DNA from: a virus | DNA length: 64,000 bases | Virus record (IMG/VR): IMGVR_UViG_3300020467_000004 | Span: 36,574 to 100,573 of that record | Strand: one strand, 5' to 3' | Part shown: piece after piece, positions 3,768 through 62,648 of the stretch | How positions within the stretch are numbered: position 1 is the first letter of the stretch | How the letters are laid out: each line of letters begins with the position of its first letter | The notes under the pieces: model-generated | Databases searched by the model: none | Seen by the model: the letters and a program-made list of their open reading frames with translations, nothing else | What the model was told of the DNA's origin: nothing | Translations under genes and position numbers: made by a program

Positions 3768-3800
3768 AGAAGCCTCCCTAGGATTCGTATAAATTATTCA

Positions 3801-49911: not shown

Positions 49912-50697
49912 TTAAACACCTGAAGATGTTAGTTTGATATGGCGATGATAGGTTTCGTGGTCATCCATCATCAGTATCTTTTTCATCTTCGTATCGCGAT
50001 ATTCGGTATACAGTTCTTCCGCATCAGCATAACCTTCTACAATATCACGGTAAATGCCCAATGACATTCCACCATGTAGCCTGGCAGTATCAATACTAAT
50101 AATAGACTGATTGTAGATGTAGCTCTTTACTGCAAACTCTACTAGTTTAGTAAACGCGGGAATGGTACGTGGGTTGAGGTTTTGCATGTCAGGGTCGTTA
50201 CTTACCACACAGCGTAAGACCGCGTTATTACTTAGAACACTCTCGGCTTCAACATGAATAGTGTTCTCATCAATCAATGTTACAGATGATGTGCTATTTG
50301 TTTCATAGCCGTTGGCGGCGTCAATGATGTTAAGCGATTCTCTAATCATAGACGAACTAGTAGTATACGTGCTAGTTGCTTCGTTCTCATTAAACCCAAG
50401 ACTCATCACAGAGATAATGCTACGGCCTTGTGTGGCCGTTTTAGGAATAACGTAGACCTGGTGGCTTCCGTCATCGTAAGTCTTCTTAGCAGAGCGTAGA
50501 GAGAGCTCTATCTGTATACCACCTACTAAATTACAATCTACAAGAACACGAGGTTTAACTACCTTAGCGATGATCTGAGATTCAACGGATACCGGATAGT
50601 TGATAGTATTAAAACGTTTGTCTATAAAGACCTGACGTAGTATTTCCGCTGGGATTTTAAATGTGCAGTCCTGTACGGCTTTTTGAATGGGGCTCAT
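49912..50697 (-). CDS. Putative virion-module protein, 261 aa
   Basis: Alpha/beta, Ser/Thr/Asn-rich centre (NENEATSTYTTSSSMIRES) and a helical C-terminus. No enzyme motif. Lies between terminase and PhuZ, like several unknown virion-region genes of phiKZ relatives. Not recognised. Confidence 0.6.
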   Translation of the reverse strand: MSPIQKAVQDCTFKIPAEILRQVFIDKRFNTINYPVSVESQIIAKVVKPRVLVDCNLVGGIQIELSLRSAKKTYDDGSHQVYVIPKTATQGRSIISVMSLGFNENEATSTYTTSSSMIRESLNIIDAANGYETNSTSSVTLIDENTIHVEAESVLSNNAVLRCVVSNDPDMQNLNPRTIPAFTKLVEFAVKSYIYNQSIISIDTARLHGGMSLGIYRDIVEGYADAEELYTEYRDTKMKKILMMDDHETYHRHIKLTSSGV

Positions 50698-50880: not shown

Positions 50881-51846
50881 ATGAGTAAACACACCTTAAG
50901 AATCTACGCGGCAGGCGGCTGCGCGACTAACTTAGCGAAGCCCTTTGTTGGTTTAGAATCGTCTGACATCTACGCCGATATCGATCCTGTTTTTGTAGAC
51001 ACTAGCATGTCTAACATCGAAGGACCTATCACTGAAGAAATGTGCTACATCCTACCTGACGTAGATGGCTCAGGTAAGGTACGTCGTGAAAACCACCAAC
51101 GTATCTCTGATTCAATCAAAGACATCGTGTCAATTCACCCTCCAGGTGACTTTAACATTGTTATGTTCTCAGCCGCAGGTGGTTCAGGTTCAGTAGCTGG
51201 ACCATTGATTGCTCGTCATCTTCTTGAAATTGAAGCACCATTGATCTGTATTGTAGTGGGTTCTACAGACTCTGCTATCACGTGTACTAACACACTTAAT
51301 ACACTGAAATCATTAGATAGCATCTCACAAGCTGCAGAGCTACCTATCACATTGTTCTACGAGGAGAACGGTGCTGGTGTTAAACGTTCAGAAATTGACA
51401 AGCGCGTCAAAGGTGCTATCGGTTCTATCAGTGCTTTGGTATCTGGCAACAACCGTGAACTTGATACTAAAGACATTTCAACATGGGTGTACTACAACCG
51501 TGCGTCTAAAGTTGAACCACAATTAAGTCAGCTATCTATTCTTCGTGATAACACAGCGGTAGAAGGTCTTAATGAGCCTATCTCTATTGCTTCATTGTTA
51601 GCAGACCCTGACACGGAGATGCCTGAAGCTGCGCCTGATTATCAATGTATCGGTTATCACCGTGATCAGTCTGGTGAGGTCCCTGACATGCACCTTGTAA
51701 TTTCTGTGAACGGCATTGAGCGTATCTACGAAGGTATTGCTAAAGCGCATGGTACTTACGAGAAGTCTACGTCTAAGCGTTCTCTAGACAGAAAGACTTT
51801 CGTTGGTGGTGGCGATCAAGTAACTAAAGATGGCATGGTACTGTAA
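50881..51846 (+). CDS. phuZ: Tubulin-like GTPase PhuZ
   Basis: 321 aa, near the roughly 315 aa of known phage PhuZ proteins. The nucleotide-binding G-box is SAAGGSGSVAG (glycines at 100, 101, 103), the tubulin-type GGTGSG loop. The T7 loop region reads EENGAGVKRSEIDKR, with E171 and D173 as candidates for GTP hydrolysis. In phiKZ-like infections PhuZ filaments form a spindle that centres the phage nucleus and carries capsids to it. The C-terminal tail (RKTFVGGGDQVTKDGMVL) is short and not as acidic as in Pseudomonas phage PhuZ as I remember it, so the polymer contacts may differ. Ribosome site AAGAGG; a TATGCCGC terminator follows. Confidence 0.8.
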   Translation: MSKHTLRIYAAGGCATNLAKPFVGLESSDIYADIDPVFVDTSMSNIEGPITEEMCYILPDVDGSGKVRRENHQRISDSIKDIVSIHPPGDFNIVMFSAAGGSGSVAGPLIARHLLEIEAPLICIVVGSTDSAITCTNTLNTLKSLDSISQAAELPITLFYEENGAGVKRSEIDKRVKGAIGSISALVSGNNRELDTKDISTWVYYNRASKVEPQLSQLSILRDNTAVEGLNEPISIASLLADPDTEMPEAAPDYQCIGYHRDQSGEVPDMHLVISVNGIERIYEGIAKAHGTYEKSTSKRSLDRKTFVGGGDQVTKDGMVL

Positions 51847-51860
51847 GTACCCATCCAGAA

Positions 51861-51898
51861 CGCATACCGCCTCCCTGATGGGGAGGCGTCTATGCCGC
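51861..51898 (+). terminator. Hairpin terminator with TCTATGCCGC
   Basis: A perfect 8-bp GC-rich stem (51868-51875 with 51881-51888) followed by TCTATGCCGC, with AACGCATA mirrored before the stem. Closes PhuZ. Confidence 0.7.
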
Positions 51899-51916
51899 TT
51901 GTCAGTATTTTTCAGA

Positions 51917-51926
51917 CCTACATTAC
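51917..51926 (+). promoter_or_regulatory. Early-type promoter box CCTACATTAC
   Basis: An exact consensus match directly after the PhuZ terminator and 41 bp before the first gene of the small-gene array. It makes the array a likely early operon. Confidence 0.6.
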
Positions 51927-51966: not shown

Positions 51967-52314
51967 ATGACAGTGCCTAACTACTTCCTGTTCGATATAA
52001 CAACAGCCCGTGAAATCGCAAAGCCCTTCATTATAGATTTACAAAAACATCTAAGCGGTAGACCAGAAGTCGATATTGACAAAGTATTAAATCAGTGGTT
52101 TGCCGAACGCCTAGTAACAATGGGCGTATTACATCATGACAACCCAATTGAAACTGACATGCCCCTAGGTGTGATCCTTTTCCTTAATAGCCTACCTGAC
52201 GTTATTAAAGGTTCAGTTGATCAACAGCTATTTCGTGCCGTAAGTAATCACTGGCATCCGGACACATCAGTTAAAACGTATATTAAAGACCAGACGTTGG
52301 TCATTAATGCCTAA
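51967..52314 (+). CDS. Small-array protein 1, 115 aa
   Basis: First gene after the early-type box. N-terminal strand YFLFDITTAREIA, helical middle, and a C-terminal strand (TYIKDQTLVINA). This outline (short hydrophobic strand with an Asp, helices, a final strand pair) recurs in the following genes. Not recognised. Confidence 0.6.
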   Translation: MTVPNYFLFDITTAREIAKPFIIDLQKHLSGRPEVDIDKVLNQWFAERLVTMGVLHHDNPIETDMPLGVILFLNSLPDVIKGSVDQQLFRAVSNHWHPDTSVKTYIKDQTLVINA

Positions 52315-52329
52315 AAGGACCTACCCCCT

Positions 52330-52932
52330 ATGGCGATAAGTATAATACTCCCTTTACATGAATTTATAGATAACGTAGTACTACGTTCATCGCTGTTCTT
52401 CTATAACGTCGATCGTCCTAACCCGGTCAAACGTAACCACGCTAAAGCTATTGTTCATCAACTGGTTGACGATGCGTTAAGTCATTCATTTGCATGGGCA
52501 CCAAGTGTCGATAAGACATCGGGTCTGTTAGAGGAATTCTACCCGTGGATGACAACGCATCCTGTATTTGGATCACGCTTCTATCAGCAATGTATAGACC
52601 CGGTTGACGCTAGGCTAACTGAGATCTTAGGTACTTATGTAACGTACAACACACCTGATGTATGGAGCGTGAGAAAAGATGGCGATAGTATCGTCCTAGA
52701 AAACCTAGGTTCTCACATGAACAACGCTGCTCAAGGTTTTGCTGATAAGTTACAAAGCCTACTTCAAGAAGAATACGCAACGCGTTTAGGTTCATTACCA
52801 ATACATCGCAATAATGCAACTACGGGTGATGATCTTAAACATCAAGTAGACTCTACGTACGATGACCTGACAAACACCGTATTGCGTTTAATGGTTGACA
52901 AAGATCTTAATTTGACAGGACAGCCCCAGTGA
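52330..52932 (+). CDS. Small-array protein 2, 200 aa
   Basis: Longer member with the same outline: N-terminal strand ISIILPLHEFID, helical middle, strand SVRKDGDSIVLENL, then an extra helical C-terminus of about 65 residues. It overlaps the next gene by 4 bp (ATGA-type junction). Function unknown. Confidence 0.6.
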   Translation: MAISIILPLHEFIDNVVLRSSLFFYNVDRPNPVKRNHAKAIVHQLVDDALSHSFAWAPSVDKTSGLLEEFYPWMTTHPVFGSRFYQQCIDPVDARLTEILGTYVTYNTPDVWSVRKDGDSIVLENLGSHMNNAAQGFADKLQSLLQEEYATRLGSLPIHRNNATTGDDLKHQVDSTYDDLTNTVLRLMVDKDLNLTGQPQ

Positions 52933-53393
52933 GCCAGATCTCTATCATAGTTAGTTTTGATGATGTACATTCGCTGTGTTTTAAATACTTAGAACCTATT
53001 ATAGGTGGTGCGTATTTACAGTGTATGGACTATACATTGGTATTGGATTATGAAGTAGAAGTGTTTTTGCTTGGTGAAAACAACCGCTATATGGTTGGTG
53101 AGGATGTGACCGAGTCGTGGTTAGAAGAACTATGTCCAATGCCTGATATCCGAAGCGCATTGAAGAAAGATATACGACGCTCTGTACAAGGCATCATTAC
53201 CCGTATCTTAGGCGGTGATAAAATTAGCAACCACCATTACGAGTATCAGCGTCTAGGTGACCAGTTTGAATATCTCATTGTAGATAAGGGTGATGTCAGA
53301 GATGCCGAGCTCGAAATGCTACGACGTTCAAATGACGAGCTTAAACAGAGAATACAGAATATGGAGGAAGGTTGGTGGGTCCAAGATACCTAA
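52929..53393 (+). CDS. Small-array protein 3, 154 aa
   Basis: Start overlaps gene 2 by 4 bp. N-terminal strand ISIIVSFDDVHSL; strand-rich first half, helical middle, strand QFEYLIVDKGDV and a coiled-coil-like C-terminal helix (AELEMLRRSNDELKQRIQN). The coiled coil suggests oligomers or a partner. Overlaps gene 4 by 22 bp. Confidence 0.6.
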   Translation: MSQISIIVSFDDVHSLCFKYLEPIIGGAYLQCMDYTLVLDYEVEVFLLGENNRYMVGEDVTESWLEELCPMPDIRSALKKDIRRSVQGIITRILGGDKISNHHYEYQRLGDQFEYLIVDKGDVRDAELEMLRRSNDELKQRIQNMEEGWWVQDT

Positions 53394-53755
53394 TATTAGA
53401 TATCTCGCATGCGCGTGCTACTGAGAATCATTTAAACGGTTCCCTTGCAACTTACAATCTTAAGTTCACAGATTTATTAACAATGACAGTTGAGGCATTG
53501 ACTAACCTTGAAGATTATTACACCAACGATGAAAAGGTCACCGATTACGGATTGATGTATCGGTGCCTTAATCAATACAACGACAGACATCGTAAGGAGT
53601 ACACCTTTGAGGATATTCATGACATCTGCACGATAGCGCTTAGAATATACAAGACCATTTACCCGGCCATTGGTACATTCTTTCAGCAATATACGTTCAG
53701 TAGACTTATTGTCTCTCAGTGTCTTGGAGATGACCTATATGTTGAGTGCTGTTGA
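53372..53755 (+). CDS. Small-array protein 4, 127 aa
   Basis: A TTG or GTG start (53372 or 53375) follows a GGAGGAAGG ribosome site inside the end of gene 3. N-terminal strand YLILDISHARA, then helices. Shares the L-D-[IV]-S/R start with genes 1, 5 and 7. The end overlaps gene 5 by 17 bp. Confidence 0.55.
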   Translation: MVGPRYLILDISHARATENHLNGSLATYNLKFTDLLTMTVEALTNLEDYYTNDEKVTDYGLMYRCLNQYNDRHRKEYTFEDIHDICTIALRIYKTIYPAIGTFFQQYTFSRLIVSQCLGDDLYVECC

Positions 53756-54149
53756 ACCAGAAGATAAATTCTTCATCATTGACGTTAGGCAATATATGTT
53801 AAAGCTTGATCAGCAAGATGTCCAAGCACTTAACAACATCAAGATGAATTATCATGATGTATTGCTTTTAGCAGCGACTAGTGCATTAACTAGTCAGTTT
53901 GATAAAGTCAAGGTCAAGGATCACGTAGAAGGTGAGCTCTACACATTACTTGATGAATATGATGAGCTGGGTGTGTCGGCCGATAACTACCATACGTTTA
54001 TGCATGTTATCAATATCACGCTACAAGTAGCATGGCCAATAACCCAGTCTGTAGATAATCTACAACGTAACATTCCCAACATCGAGTTTGTAGATGTTAA
54101 TATAGTGGGTGATACTACTGTTGTTTACACATACCACATGGTGGGATAA
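53739..54149 (+). CDS. Small-array protein 5, 136 aa
   Basis: The frame is open further upstream, but the ATG at 53739 with GGAG at 53726 avoids a long overlap and starts just before the array strand FFIIDVRQYML. Ends with strands IEFVDVNIVGDTTVVYTY, matching the FVGFDGMDIVVNVY ending of protein 8. Clear outline match to the array; function unknown. Confidence 0.55.
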   Translation: MLSAVEPEDKFFIIDVRQYMLKLDQQDVQALNNIKMNYHDVLLLAATSALTSQFDKVKVKDHVEGELYTLLDEYDELGVSADNYHTFMHVINITLQVAWPITQSVDNLQRNIPNIEFVDVNIVGDTTVVYTYHMVG

Positions 54150-54160
54150 GAGAATATACA

Positions 54161-54532
54161 ATGATAGTGATTATCGATTTACCTATGGATAGGCCGCCCT
54201 ATCCTCCTGATCCCTCGCTGACAGCCGCAGATATAATTGAAGCGGCTACTGCGTTATGGGTTAATCAATTCATCGATGATGATAACTTTGATACACACAC
54301 GGTTGATCAGGTTGTTGATCATATCTGTAGCCGTATGGGTTTGAGTAGCGGTAAAAGTGAAGTACAGGAAATGATGTGTCATTATGTTAATGACATTATA
54401 CTGGAAACCTACGAAGCGGTGGACAAGTCTCTACGCCGCATCATGACAACCTTTGGCAATCGGCCATTGATTGACTACGTAGGTACTAGCTTCCCTACAC
54501 TGCTTGTCCAAGTTCATCTAGATGACCGCTAA
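54161..54532 (+). CDS. Small-array protein 6, 123 aa
   Basis: N-terminal strand IVIIDLPMDRPPYPPDPS with a Pro-rich loop, then two long helices and a final strand TLLVQVHLDD. Overlaps the next gene by 11 bp. Not recognised. Confidence 0.6.
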   Translation: MIVIIDLPMDRPPYPPDPSLTAADIIEAATALWVNQFIDDDNFDTHTVDQVVDHICSRMGLSSGKSEVQEMMCHYVNDIILETYEAVDKSLRRIMTTFGNRPLIDYVGTSFPTLLVQVHLDDR

Positions 54533-54878
54533 TATACTTCTTTTGGACTGTAGTAATTTACAGTCCATTTATGACGTTATGATACCGATATGGCGTTATG
54601 AGACTAGACGTCCTATCCCCGCGTCGTTAGATAGCTTAACTTCTGAAATAATTAACTACTATAAAACCTATAGGGTTAAACCCGCTACGAGTTACACATC
54701 AGTTGCTAGTTATCTACAGGAGCAATATGAGTTCCCGGTAATAACGCCTATTGTGGAACCTCACTTTGCGGCCTTTTGTAAAGAACTTTATAAATACCAT
54801 AAACTAGCATTTGTATTGAGCTGTGACTATTACTATATATGTATCAAGCACAATACCATGTATTTAGAATTGGAATAA
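54522..54878 (+). CDS. Small-array protein 7, 118 aa
   Basis: N-terminal strand ILLLDCSNLQSIYDV, Tyr-rich helices, and a C-terminal strand pair YYYICIKHNTMYLELE. Same outline as the other array members. Starts inside the end of gene 6. Confidence 0.6.
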   Translation: MTANILLLDCSNLQSIYDVMIPIWRYETRRPIPASLDSLTSEIINYYKTYRVKPATSYTSVASYLQEQYEFPVITPIVEPHFAAFCKELYKYHKLAFVLSCDYYYICIKHNTMYLELE

Positions 54879-54881
54879 GTT

Positions 54882-55268
54882 ATGGATAATAATCATCAGC
54901 CCTACCCACCTACCAGTCCTGTGGTGTATATTGTCTCAGCAGAGCGTGGTGTCAAACGACTGTATGAGGCTATATCAGCTGAGGAAACCGTCGTTGAAGA
55001 TTTTAAGAGACTAATAGCTATGGCTGTTAACGCAGCTTCGCTATCAGTAAACGATGTGGAAAACAATCGCCATAATGCTATAAACGATTACCTCTATCCA
55101 TTGCAACTAACCGTCCGTGAGAGAGAGAATTACATCGCTCACCTGGACGTGTTTATTCAGGATCTAATAACAGGCTTTCACCAACTTGGTATACGTGATC
55201 TAGGAGGTGTTGAGTTTGTCGGATTTGATGGGATGGATATTGTCGTTAATGTCTATGCGCAGCAATAA
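54882..55268 (+). CDS. Small-array protein 8, 128 aa
   Basis: The Pro-rich start (HQPYPPTSP) is followed by the strand VVYIVSAERGVK. Helical middle, final strands VEFVGFDGMDIVVNVY. Starts 3 bp after gene 7. Most similar at its end to protein 5. Confidence 0.6.
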   Translation: MDNNHQPYPPTSPVVYIVSAERGVKRLYEAISAEETVVEDFKRLIAMAVNAASLSVNDVENNRHNAINDYLYPLQLTVRERENYIAHLDVFIQDLITGFHQLGIRDLGGVEFVGFDGMDIVVNVYAQQ

Positions 55269-55289
55269 TAACAAAAAGGAGCACGTGCA

Positions 55290-55634
55290 GTGCTTAAATT
55301 TATGATCCTAACCCTAGATAGCTTATCGGGGTTAATTGCTAGATACAGTGAAGAGATGAACCCAGATTCACCTGTCGTTAATAATGAAACGCTGCATTGG
55401 TTAAATTCAGATATTGATGATTTGATTCAAGGTGGGTTTGAACAACAAACAGACGTCGTACACGCCACGTTAACGTCGATCATTGATGATGTAAGCCGAT
55501 ACCTTAATAGATACAACATTGAGGTAGCTGATTTTAGAACAATAGAAATTGTCAATCGCGACGGTACAATACTAATTTATTTTGGAGAGTTTAGTTATGG
55601 TGATATTCCCAAGTCACAATGTAAGCATACGTGA
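55290..55634 (+). CDS. Small-array protein 9, 114 aa
   Basis: A GTG start follows AAAAAGGAGCACG. Strand FMILTLDSLSGLIA, helical middle, strands IEIVNRDGTILIYFGEF. The end overlaps gene 10 by 38 bp in another frame. Confidence 0.6.
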   Translation: MLKFMILTLDSLSGLIARYSEEMNPDSPVVNNETLHWLNSDIDDLIQGGFEQQTDVVHATLTSIIDDVSRYLNRYNIEVADFRTIEIVNRDGTILIYFGEFSYGDIPKSQCKHT

Positions 55635-56007
55635 CGTTGTTAGCTTCTCGCTATATGACAATACCACAATAGGTACTGTCTTTAGCAGAGTGCGTATTAT
55701 TGGGGTGGTTGATTACGATACCGCCTCTAACGCCATCGATCCGGTAGCGCTACACGAGGATATCATCACTAACCTACCTGAAGGTAGCATTGATGACCCT
55801 ACGGCGTATAGCTACTTAAAGGTGCAGATGGAAAATGGCAATAAGACGTTTATCGGCATGCCGTGGGTTAACATGTCAACCCTTGAACGCGTTGGTAGTA
55901 GTAAGCTGCAGCTCACTATCGATGATGTTAATAGCGATGACGTCCCGCGCATCCTAGCTGCGTTAACCTCAAATGGCTTTACTGTATCGGATACTAAGAT
56001 CTTATAA
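55597..56007 (+). CDS. Small-array protein 10, 136 aa
   Basis: Of the in-frame starts I prefer the ATG at 55597, since TTGGAGAG lies 9-14 bp before it. This last array member is more beta-rich (VVSFSLYDNTTIGTVFSRVRIIG) and departs from the shared outline, ending with a small alpha/beta unit. Not recognised. Confidence 0.6.
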   Translation: MVIFPSHNVSIRDVVSFSLYDNTTIGTVFSRVRIIGVVDYDTASNAIDPVALHEDIITNLPEGSIDDPTAYSYLKVQMENGNKTFIGMPWVNMSTLERVGSSKLQLTIDDVNSDDVPRILAALTSNGFTVSDTKIL

Positions 56008-56045: not shown

Positions 56046-56147
56046 ATGAACGTTGTTGAGTTTGAGACCCTCCTCAGTGTTCTTGATCTTGAGCCAGAAG
56101 ATCGATCCCTAAAGGTAGTCACGCACCTTTATATTTGTCAAACGTAG
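56046..56147 (+). CDS. Possible 33-aa protein
   Basis: An ATG at 56046 opens a 33-codon frame (MNVVEFETLLSVLDLEPEDR...) ending 7 bp before the terminator stem at 56155. The sequence reads like an amphipathic acidic helix. The ribosome site is weak, so it may not be translated. Confidence 0.4.
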   Translation: MNVVEFETLLSVLDLEPEDRSLKVVTHLYICQT

Positions 56148-56154
56148 TGTTTAC

Positions 56155-56200
56155 CCTTCCTACACCTTTCCTCTAGGGTGTAGGAAGGTTTTATGCCGTC
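56155..56200 (+). terminator. Hairpin terminator with TTTTATGCCGTC
   Basis: A perfect 12-bp stem (56155-56166 with 56177-56188) followed by TTTTATGCCGTC and seven Ts. Ends the early small-gene array. Confidence 0.75.
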
Positions 56201-56272: not shown

Positions 56273-58408
56273 ATGGAAAACCCATTTGTTCTCCCTACCC
56301 AAGAGTATGGTCGAGATTTGAATATCCTGGAACGTTACTATCAGGATACCGCAAGATACCTAGCCTTAGAGACAGGTCGTTCACATGACGAGTGCTACCA
56401 GTGGGTTAAAGAAACCACCCACCCTTCAAGCGGTAAGTTGCCTTTAAAAGATCCAAAGGTGCTAAGCCTTAAACGAGACAAGCCAGGTGAGCGTGATAAG
56501 TGGGAAACTACATTCCTTGGCTACCTTCAAAAGGTGAACAACGAGAACTTAATCATCAGTCCTACACTAGCAGCATATAGACACCCTGATCAGCACGAGT
56601 CTATACTTGCTAAGTATATCCGTAAGAACGTAGATAAGCGTAATGCTGTTAAGAAAAAGAAATTCCAGTCTACGATGGCAGGTAATGATGCTGAGGCTGG
56701 CTTTTACGACATCCTGCAATCTACATTTAAAATCAAGAACAACTCAGTAAGTGGTGGTCATGCATCAGCTTTCACACCGCTGTATAACAAATCAACCCAC
56801 TCTACACTAACATCTACCTGCCGTTCGGCTACCGGGTATGCCAACGCCAACAACGAACGCTTCCTATACGGTAACCGTCACTATTACGATGTGGATGTGG
56901 CAATCCAGAACATCATCTCAATAATCAACAATAGTGATTATAAGACAATAGCAGAAGCGGTAGAGAAATATAATCTACACGTCCCTAGTGTAGAGGAAGT
57001 CTGTGAAACGATTAAATATTCAACAGACCTATACTGGCGTAATCTGCAGTGGTCTAACCGTATCCACAGTCTGATATCTAAACTGTCTGATATGGAACGT
57101 GTGGCTTATACTTACACGGGTAATTTCTACCATCTACGTGAATTAAACCCAGAGTTCACTAGAACGTTCCTAGATCGTTTTACTACGTGCTCAGACACCA
57201 CGATAGACAACCCAGAAGCAGTCATCAGTGAGATGGATGGGGATCTTGAAGCGTATGTAGGCATTCTGCATGCTCACGATTTAAAGAATAAACCCATCTT
57301 TAAAATCAAAGAATCTGAACCTGAGACTTATGCACGCATTGCTAGTTCAGTTAACAATATCTTTGACTTACTGAAAGAATATACAGTATTGTTTAAAGCG
57401 TTCTGGGTGACCCTCAACCCGCCCGCATCGGTAGCGGTATTACCCGATGCTATACGTCGTGGTGTATTGGTGTCGGATACAGACTCTACCATCTTCACTG
57501 TTCAAGACTGGACTATGTGGTATAAGAATGGCGTGGTTGATTTCGATGCTAAAACAACGAGTGTATGGGCGTTTGTTGTATACATTGCCCAGATGACTAC
57601 CATGCATCTGCTTGCTTTGTTGTCATCTAACATGGGTGTGGCTAAACCTGATTTGTACAAGTTATCAATGAAGAACGAATACATGATGCCCGCGCTGTCA
57701 TTGACAAGTCGTGCTAAACACTACGCCTATTACATTAGTGCGCAGGAAGGTAACGTCTATAAGAAGATGAAAACGGATATCAAGGGGGTTGAGCTTAAAT
57801 CTACTAAAGCCCCTAAAGAGATCATTGAAAAGCTACACAAGTACATCATGAAGCCGATGGACTGGACGTTGGAAGGTAAGAAAATCCCTATTAAAGAAAT
57901 GATGCAAGAAGTTGCTGACCAAGAGCACGCTATCATTGACAGCCTTAATCAGGGTAAGATCGATTATCTAACCACCGCCGGTATTAAAGCTGCTGAGTCG
58001 TACGCTAACCCACAAGGATCTAATTACATCTATTACGATTTCTGGAATACTGTCTTTGGTCCTAAGTATGGTGAGGTACCACCACCACCGTATAGCACGG
58101 TAAAGGTATCGCTAAATGCTACGTCTAAGACAAAGGTATCAGAATGGATACGTAGTATCAAGGATGTTGAATTAGCAGAACGTCTTGAAGACTGGATGGG
58201 TAAGAATAACAAACTAGCAGGGATAACGCAGTTCTTAATCCCCATGGATGTTATTAGTACCAAAGGGATGCCTGAAGAAATAATCCAATGTATGGATATA
58301 CGGAAGATTGTGTTCACCACCATGGCACCATTCTATCTGGTATTGGAGACGTATGGGGTGTATATGAAAGATAAGAATATCACTAAGCTTGTTAGCGATA
58401 TCATGTAG
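56273..58408 (+). CDS. Family-B DNA polymerase, palm/thumb piece (split polymerase)
   Basis: The 711-aa product has the motif C of family B polymerases, VSDTDSTIF (D402 and D404, in place of YGDTDS). A motif-B-like stretch, STFKIKNNSVSGGHAS, lies near 150-165, and after motif C come KLSMKNEYMMPALSL and then TSRAKHYAYYIS, as in the KKRY region, and a DIKGVELKS block matching KGIE/G-type sequences. No exonuclease domain (no FDxE motif) and no motif A DxxSLYPS are visible, so those must be in another gene, as in phiKZ relatives where the polymerase is split. About 250 residues separate motifs B and C, longer than usual. Confidence 0.75.
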   Translation: MENPFVLPTQEYGRDLNILERYYQDTARYLALETGRSHDECYQWVKETTHPSSGKLPLKDPKVLSLKRDKPGERDKWETTFLGYLQKVNNENLIISPTLAAYRHPDQHESILAKYIRKNVDKRNAVKKKKFQSTMAGNDAEAGFYDILQSTFKIKNNSVSGGHASAFTPLYNKSTHSTLTSTCRSATGYANANNERFLYGNRHYYDVDVAIQNIISIINNSDYKTIAEAVEKYNLHVPSVEEVCETIKYSTDLYWRNLQWSNRIHSLISKLSDMERVAYTYTGNFYHLRELNPEFTRTFLDRFTTCSDTTIDNPEAVISEMDGDLEAYVGILHAHDLKNKPIFKIKESEPETYARIASSVNNIFDLLKEYTVLFKAFWVTLNPPASVAVLPDAIRRGVLVSDTDSTIFTVQDWTMWYKNGVVDFDAKTTSVWAFVVYIAQMTTMHLLALLSSNMGVAKPDLYKLSMKNEYMMPALSLTSRAKHYAYYISAQEGNVYKKMKTDIKGVELKSTKAPKEIIEKLHKYIMKPMDWTLEGKKIPIKEMMQEVADQEHAIIDSLNQGKIDYLTTAGIKAAESYANPQGSNYIYYDFWNTVFGPKYGEVPPPPYSTVKVSLNATSKTKVSEWIRSIKDVELAERLEDWMGKNNKLAGITQFLIPMDVISTKGMPEEIIQCMDIRKIVFTTMAPFYLVLETYGVYMKDKNITKLVSDIM

Positions 58409-62129: not shown

Positions 62130-62648
62130 GTGACAAAGCCTATGGTAGAATCAATTTTAACAATAACAACACCTCGCCCATCAGATATCAAATTACTTGA
62201 AGAGCAGCAGGGTATTATTCTCAAACCCATTGTCGGCTTTAAAGACGCCTGGGTTAGTCGATGTGGTAAGGTCGTTAAGCTACACTACCCGCTAACAGGT
62301 GATGCGTGTTATTACTACGCCACCCTCACGGTGCGCCGACAAGATCAACGTTTGATGGTAACGCTCAAAAGTAGCGAAGGCTCTACCATGCGAACGCTAT
62401 CTGGTTTAGTGGCTCGCGCCTATCTTGAAGCACCTAAAGACCCCTCGCGTTTTGATCTAATCAACATTGATGAGGACAGAAGTAATTGTCATGCTGATAA
62501 CCTAGCGTGGCAGCTTAAATCACACACCACCAACTATTATTACGAAGTGAAAGACACTCGTGATGGTTCAGTTATGGAGTTTGATACTAAGAAAGATTTT
62601 CATGATTGGGTAAATAAAACGTTTACGTTTAACAGAAAGAAAAGGTAG
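62130..62648 (+). CDS. Degenerate HNH-type (homing endonuclease-like) protein, 172 aa
   Basis: The GTG start has ATAAGGAC 6 bp upstream. The layout is that of phage HNH/NUMOD-type endonucleases: WVSRCGKVVKL (start of a substrate strand), then LSGLVARAYL, then FDLINIDEDRSNCHADNLAWQL. In active members the last block is VNHIDGNKSNNxxENLEW, whose first His is catalytic. Here the corresponding residue is Asn (LINID), so catalysis is probably lost. It sits between ChmA and the early beta-prime gene, where a homing gene might have invaded. It could now act as a DNA-binding protein or be decaying. Confidence 0.7.
   Translation: MTKPMVESILTITTPRPSDIKLLEEQQGIILKPIVGFKDAWVSRCGKVVKLHYPLTGDACYYYATLTVRRQDQRLMVTLKSSEGSTMRTLSGLVARAYLEAPKDPSRFDLINIDEDRSNCHADNLAWQLKSHTTNYYYEVKDTRDGSVMEFDTKKDFHDWVNKTFTFNRKKR

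Follow-up and report, generated by a model that had tools for sequence, protein, structure and literature searches.

We analyzed a 64,000-nucleotide stretch of DNA (hereafter the window) that forms part of a 100.6-kilobase (kb) IMG/VR virus record, IMGVR_UViG_3300020467_000004, and within it an array of ten small genes, g1–g10. These genes, all on the + strand at 51967–56007, fill the interval between the gene for the tubulin PhuZ (phrog_4733) and that for a phiKZ-type DNA polymerase (phrog_2927, expectation value [E] 4e-238), with the chimallin gene (phrog_4795) close to both. The clustering of PhuZ, phiKZ-type DNA polymerase, and chimallin in the window identifies its source as a nucleus-forming jumbo phage, and the features by which Chimalliviridae-type phages are recognized (chimallin, the phiKZ-type polymerase, and usually PhuZ) are all present. 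The ten open reading frames (ORFs) encode 114–200 amino acids each, and neighboring ORFs are spaced by 3–21 base pairs (bp) or overlap by 4–38 bp. For g5 and g10, better starts than those first called lie at ATG 53739 and ATG 55597. The interval and its borders are laid out as follows.

50881–51846, + strand: PhuZ tubulin, bordering the interval on the left
51869–51887, + strand: GC-rich hairpin GCCTCCC...GGGGAGGC, just 3′ of PhuZ, read directly
51914–51926, + strand: early-type promoter-like box AGACCTACATTAC, upstream of g1
51967–52314, + strand: g1, 115 amino acids, opens the array; its family counts 38 members, spread over 38 loci
52330–52932, + strand: g2, 200 amino acids, superfamily member; counterpart of the N-terminal half of phiKZ gp43-type proteins
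52929–53393, + strand: g3, 154 amino acids, superfamily member; counterpart of the C-terminal half in some fused gp43-type proteins
53372–53755, + strand: g4, 127 amino acids, TTG start, superfamily member; sister of g5
53739–54149, + strand: g5, 136 amino acids, superfamily member; sister of g4
54161–54532, + strand: g6, 123 amino acids, array gene; superfamily link weak
54522–54878, + strand: g7, 118 amino acids, probable superfamily member
54882–55268, + strand: g8, 128 amino acids, superfamily member; family of 138 members in 70 loci, at most four per main array
55290–55634, + strand: g9, 114 amino acids, fastest-evolving array gene; 38 bp overlap with SH3DP
55597–56007, + strand: g10, SH3DP, 136 amino acids (PF20287, phrog_3235), not an array paralog
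56155–56188, + strand: strong terminator-like hairpin with a 14 bp stem, between SH3DP and the polymerase; closes the unit
56273–58408, + strand: phiKZ-type DNA polymerase, right border of the interval

All ten genes occur with their order intact in loci L002–L009, which together with the window represent four lineages; among these, amino acid identity is 38–74% for the array genes versus 81–86% for the polymerase. The more distant locus L024 (polymerase identity 55%) carries g1, g2, g3, two g4/g5-type genes, g6, g7, g8, g9, and SH3DP in order, together with two extra genes. Because this order is kept across four lineages and L024, the ten ORFs are taken to be real genes, which bears out the tightly overlapping array of small proteins described in a sequence-only reading that preceded this analysis.

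Profile and fold relationships among the array proteins

None of g1–g9 has a match above cut-off in Pfam, PHROG, or NCBIfam, and for these nine the earlier statement that no family is recognizable holds. It fails for g10, which matches PF20287 at 103.9 bits (Pfam cut-off 25) over residues 11–129 and phrog_3235 at E 1.7e-31, and is an orthologue of phiKZ gp49. Single-sequence tblastn searches with g2 or g3 against 50,697 phage records returned no match. We clustered the interval genes of 56 dereplicated loci into 40 families and compared their profiles all-against-all with hhalign alongside reversed decoys: 22 links exceeded 20% among the real profiles and none did so among the decoys. Iterated profiles, whose families share members (22 for g4-g5, 10 for g2-g3, five for g3-g8, and three for g4-g8), so that the 40-family comparison gives the cleaner numbers, linked g2 with g3 at 97.5%, g4 with g5 at 100%, g4 with g8 at 97%, g5 with g8 at 92.5%, and g3 with g8 at 77%, each over more than 110 columns. 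Weaker iterated links were obtained for g7-g8 (50%), g1-g8 (24%), g6 (17%), and g9 (12%), the best decoy reaching 4.3%. These profiles place at least g2, g3, g4, g5, and g8 in one superfamily of ancient paralogs, to which g7 and g1 probably also belong; relatives of g6 and g9 were detected only inside the window clade and in L024.

AlphaFold models of g3 (predicted local distance difference test score [pLDDT] 91.2) and g8 (pLDDT 89.6, from an alignment that took in rows picked through the 40-family profile links) have a common beta-alpha4-beta-beta arrangement, in which a first strand is followed by about four main helices and a C-terminal two-stranded hairpin, with an additional C-terminal helix in g3. 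This fold is seen in the models of g3 and g8 only, and the two share one topology, not the unrelated folds that would speak against common descent. A fold search of the PDB with both models gave nothing at E ≤ 0.001, and a PDB sequence-profile search returned only chance or designed helical proteins. When the g8 model was compared to predicted viral structures, the matches were uncharacterized proteins; most of those with a named source came from phiKZ-like jumbo phages (RSL2, PhiEaH1, Noxifer, Ea35-70, RisingSun, Eowyn, Psa21, Phabio, PhiPA3, and 201phi2-1); E values were weak (best 6e-4), template modeling (TM) scores ranged up to 0.72–0.76, and probabilities were high. Decoy-controlled profiles, the two models, and these viral matches together support the earlier proposal of repeated duplication of a shared fold. 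The common outline that had been ascribed to several of the proteins is recovered in the profiles of g2, g3, g4, g5, and g8 and in the g3 and g8 models; it is absent from g10, and g6 and g9, with their weak links, may or may not share it.

The sequence-only reading had also pointed to an N-terminal hydrophobic strand carrying an Asp. This motif lies within the first 25 residues of five of the nine array proteins (g1, g4, g5, g6, and g7) compared with 11% of control ORFs from the same loci (P = 0.0013), and is missing from the other four. In the models, the motif Asp closes strand one immediately ahead of helix one; since it holds this position and is not conserved in g8, it looks structural. 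Moreover, the alignments contain no invariant or nearly invariant column except Met1, which argues against catalysis. We are highly confident that g1–g9 and SH3DP form a gene unit behind an early-type box and that at least g2, g3, g4, g5, and g8 are ancient paralogs of one small fold unmatched among solved structures.

Conserved order, early-type box, and linkage to the polymerase

Across 71 loci, dereplicated by hand and with the g8 gene of L020 labeled g3, the gene types g1-g2-g3-g4/5-g8-SH3DP followed by the polymerase are in order for 638 of 646 pairs. Where g8-type genes occur as triples, the copies group by array position, requiring 11 tree changes versus 44.6 with shuffled labels (none of 200 shuffles was as low); many forks of the g8-copy tree are weak, yet the positional clustering is clear. 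Since copies cluster by position and not by phage, most of the duplications are older than the divergence of these phages, and we rejected recent lineage-specific duplication as their main source. Between close relatives, the ratio of nonsynonymous to synonymous substitution rates (dN/dS) is 0.00–0.14 for array genes and 0.03–0.05 for PhuZ, polymerase, and chimallin. Judged from these comparisons, the array is widespread among nucleus-forming phages with a conserved gene order, and its genes are diverging faster than the core yet under purifying selection. The fast divergence proposed earlier is thus seen relative to PhuZ, polymerase, and chimallin, but the likeness to takeover or anti-defense genes is countered by purifying selection and by old, ordered duplications.

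Box-like sites (≤2 mismatches) number 12 in the window, compared with 4.9 ± 1.9 in shuffled sequence, which never reached 12. The position of the box upstream of g1 is conserved in L018 and L020, and also in L024 with one more mismatch. The box closely resembles WTTTYAAACCTACATTATY, a predicted promoter of phage EL (PMC7058600), and in such phages early operons are preceded by promoters that take the form of conserved AT-rich motifs about 10 bases long (PMC7598289). The early-type box of the sequence-only reading is therefore upheld, and from it we infer early expression of the array; no sign of late or virion-only expression was found, the timing being read from sequence. The hairpin at 51869–51887 is a possible end of the PhuZ transcript, and comparable hairpins lie 3′ of PhuZ in L018 and L020. 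Other ACCTAYATTA[CT] boxes occur on the + strand at 3800, 16730, 20186, 29447, 30055, and 62703, mostly intergenic and before + strand genes; as a set they would define the early units of the window phage.

The array appears to be tied to the SH3DP-polymerase side of the interval and not to PhuZ. In pEa_SNUABM_54, PhuZ is located 74 kb from the polymerase; g2, g3, and SH3DP stay beside the polymerase, and nothing array-like was found next to PhuZ. In G005 and G010, chimallin is present and PhuZ was not detected, although these records may be incomplete; locus L081 of G010 reads g1-g2-g3-g8-g4/5-g4/5-g8-SH3DP. A partnership with PhuZ was rejected because the array remains when PhuZ is distant or undetected. 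Domains of g2 and g3 type occur fused in a single chain in L084, L086, and L090, where g3 is matched in the C-terminal half (L084_5733, L086_5600, and L090_3030; E 4e-4 to 2e-5). Array-family genes also occupy second and third sites in some phages (L103–L108, in G019, G020, and G022), roughly 90 and 115 kb away from the main array, and include five in tandem at L104 5562–7575.

The spacer between SH3DP and the polymerase is strongly conserved and non-coding at 56046–56150; as a reading frame it is broken by a length difference between lineages. It may form about three hairpins with possible UUUGA/UCAAA loop pairing, and the pairing seems preserved despite sequence changes between lineages. A search of Rfam gave no match, and folding energy alone was not significant (z −0.9, 0.0, and −1.7). 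Elsewhere, a gene for an HNH endonuclease lies immediately after chimallin (62130–62648), and a minus-strand phrog_3179 gene, apparently of phiKZ gp42 type, occupies 49912–50697. Knock-down of phiKZ gp42 had among the strongest effects in a published antisense screen (PMC12571901).

Candidate role and comparison with known systems

We tentatively favor, at somewhat short of an even chance, a reading in which the array proteins would be non-enzymatic subunits of an early complex for phage replication or nucleus establishment. They would be synthesized from the injected genome ahead of nucleus formation and would contact one another, and probably also SH3DP or the polymerase, by way of their sheet edges and C-terminal tails. 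The resulting hetero-oligomer would help phage DNA replication to become established or to run in the nascent nucleus. Old, ordered, and constrained paralogs, the fusion of g2- and g3-type domains, and the translational overlap with SH3DP suggest assembling subunits that serve the polymerase side, and the combination of old duplications, one kept order, and low dN/dS is easier to reconcile with a set of several subunits than with an arms-race island. A bolder version, which we hold to be speculative, is that as many as a dozen paralogs, kept in a fixed order, form a complex whose fold is absent from solved structures and which acts together with the SH3DP-polymerase unit when replication in the phage nucleus begins: a defining machine that would have been overlooked because its proteins diverge past the reach of ordinary sequence search. 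Several observations weigh against the subunit proposal. Among the phiKZ genes after gp42 and before SH3DP, only gp43 and gp47 are tied to families by sequence; the array-family copies about 90 and 115 kb away imply that polymerase linkage is not obligatory; and copy number varies, phage EL having three genes before SH3DP, which, with divergence faster than that of the neighbors, means that host-facing roles are also possible.

Such roles are the basis of a serious rival, in which the proteins would be individually diversified binders for host takeover or anti-defense, each paralog having its own host target (such as RNA polymerase, nucleases, or ribosome factors) and duplication giving new specificities. 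The early-type box, the small size of the proteins, the gap in identity to the flanking core genes, the variable copy number, and the secondary arrays of some genomes would all suit this explanation. However, ancient paralog types in one order over 71 loci, low dN/dS, and nine genes intact in four lineages with no pattern of gain and loss are not what it predicts, and we regard it as somewhat less likely than the subunit reading. Nor does charge help its case: the net charge of g1–g9 (−1.7 to −9.8 per 100 amino acids) is not exceptional next to PhuZ (−4.7) or SH3DP (−5.9), and DNA mimicry as a special case was rejected. No known anti-defense or DNA-mimic family in Pfam, PHROG, or NCBIfam matches g1–g9, a search that undescribed anti-defense families would escape.

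It is unlikely that the interval is a mixed accessory locus, in which small genes, only some of them paralogous and the others unrelated, gather at a fixed insertion hotspot amid core genes. Unrelated genes do occur in some intervals, such as that for the phosphatase-like phiKZ gp40, and the narrow distribution of g6 and g9 relatives would fit, but order is conserved, the duplications are old, and one superfamily fills most positions wherever profiles are deep enough. Less probable still is a role as minor virion proteins, structural or injected. In 201phi2-1, gp62 falls inside the PhuZ-polymerase interval and carries the annotation of a virion structural protein, but apart from this structural flag the record marks gp73 and gp81 as detected by mass spectrometry and none of gp74–gp80; the early-type box also speaks against late-only expression. 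Chance resemblance among unrelated small helical proteins, to which very low pairwise identities and the empty tblastn searches might point, is negligible as a general explanation and rejected for g2, g3, g4, g5, and g8, given that decoys gave no comparable links, topologies match, and viral fold matches concentrate in one phage group, though it is possible for g6 and g9.

The open-access literature yielded no description of the array, its superfamily, or phiKZ gp43–gp48, so the superfamily and its organization appear to be undescribed there, as the sequence-only reading had supposed of the system. The published core genome rests on PSI-BLAST presence in >95% of phages (PMC10299810), an approach by which divergent array proteins were likely missed. 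A widespread, colinear array on the polymerase side would fill a gap in the picture of replication start or cell takeover by nucleus-forming phages, and phiKZ gp43–gp48 offer a compact, ordered set of targets for knock-down. To our knowledge, no function has been assigned to most genes in nucleus-forming phages.

With respect to known folds, PIN-domain proteins likewise begin with a hydrophobic N-terminal strand that ends in an Asp. Unlike PIN domains, the array fold has three strands in beta-alpha4-beta-beta order and lacks a conserved acidic set or a Pfam hit, and a PIN domain was rejected on the topology of the g3 and g8 models, in which its parallel sheet with conserved acidic residues is not found. 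PhiPA3 gp044, located in an equivalent array, resembles the g8 model in fold (probability 0.96, E 0.023); gp044 and phiKZ gp47 (phrog_17816) are longer, and no sequence similarity to window genes was detected. SH3DP (phiKZ gp49) is a known family of which g10 is a clear member, directly downstream of g1–g9 in one unit and adjoining the polymerase gene; unlike the array proteins it has an SH3 fold, and its profile link to each of g1–g9 is at most 0.9%. An SH3-fold gene beside the phiKZ-type polymerase has been noted earlier (PMC7824862), and in the antisense screen knock-down of gp49, there termed a polymerase interactor, had a strong effect; the hit table lists phiKZ 042, 049, and 050 and not 043–048, which may or may not have been among the genes tested (PMC12571901).

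The closest counterparts by sequence are phiKZ gp43, PhiPA3 gp39, and 201phi2-1 gp75, whose N-terminal halves match the g2 family (E 1e-9 to 1e-14) from an equivalent position in the interval. The g2-family profile aligns with residues 37–155 of phiKZ gp43 (E 1.7e-9), a member of phrog_14023 (unknown function), which window g2 alone reaches only at E 0.032; profile search detected no g3-type match in phiKZ gp43 itself. A tail motif, GD[YW]xPExxRR, is common to g3-type and gp43-type proteins (L025, L029, L033, L043, and others, and phiKZ gp43) and could be a binding peptide. Many gp43-type and g3-type proteins share a C-terminal tail of GDYxPxxxR form, and phiKZ, PhiPA3, and 201phi2-1 have one protein of about 340–360 amino acids where the window has two genes, g2 and g3.

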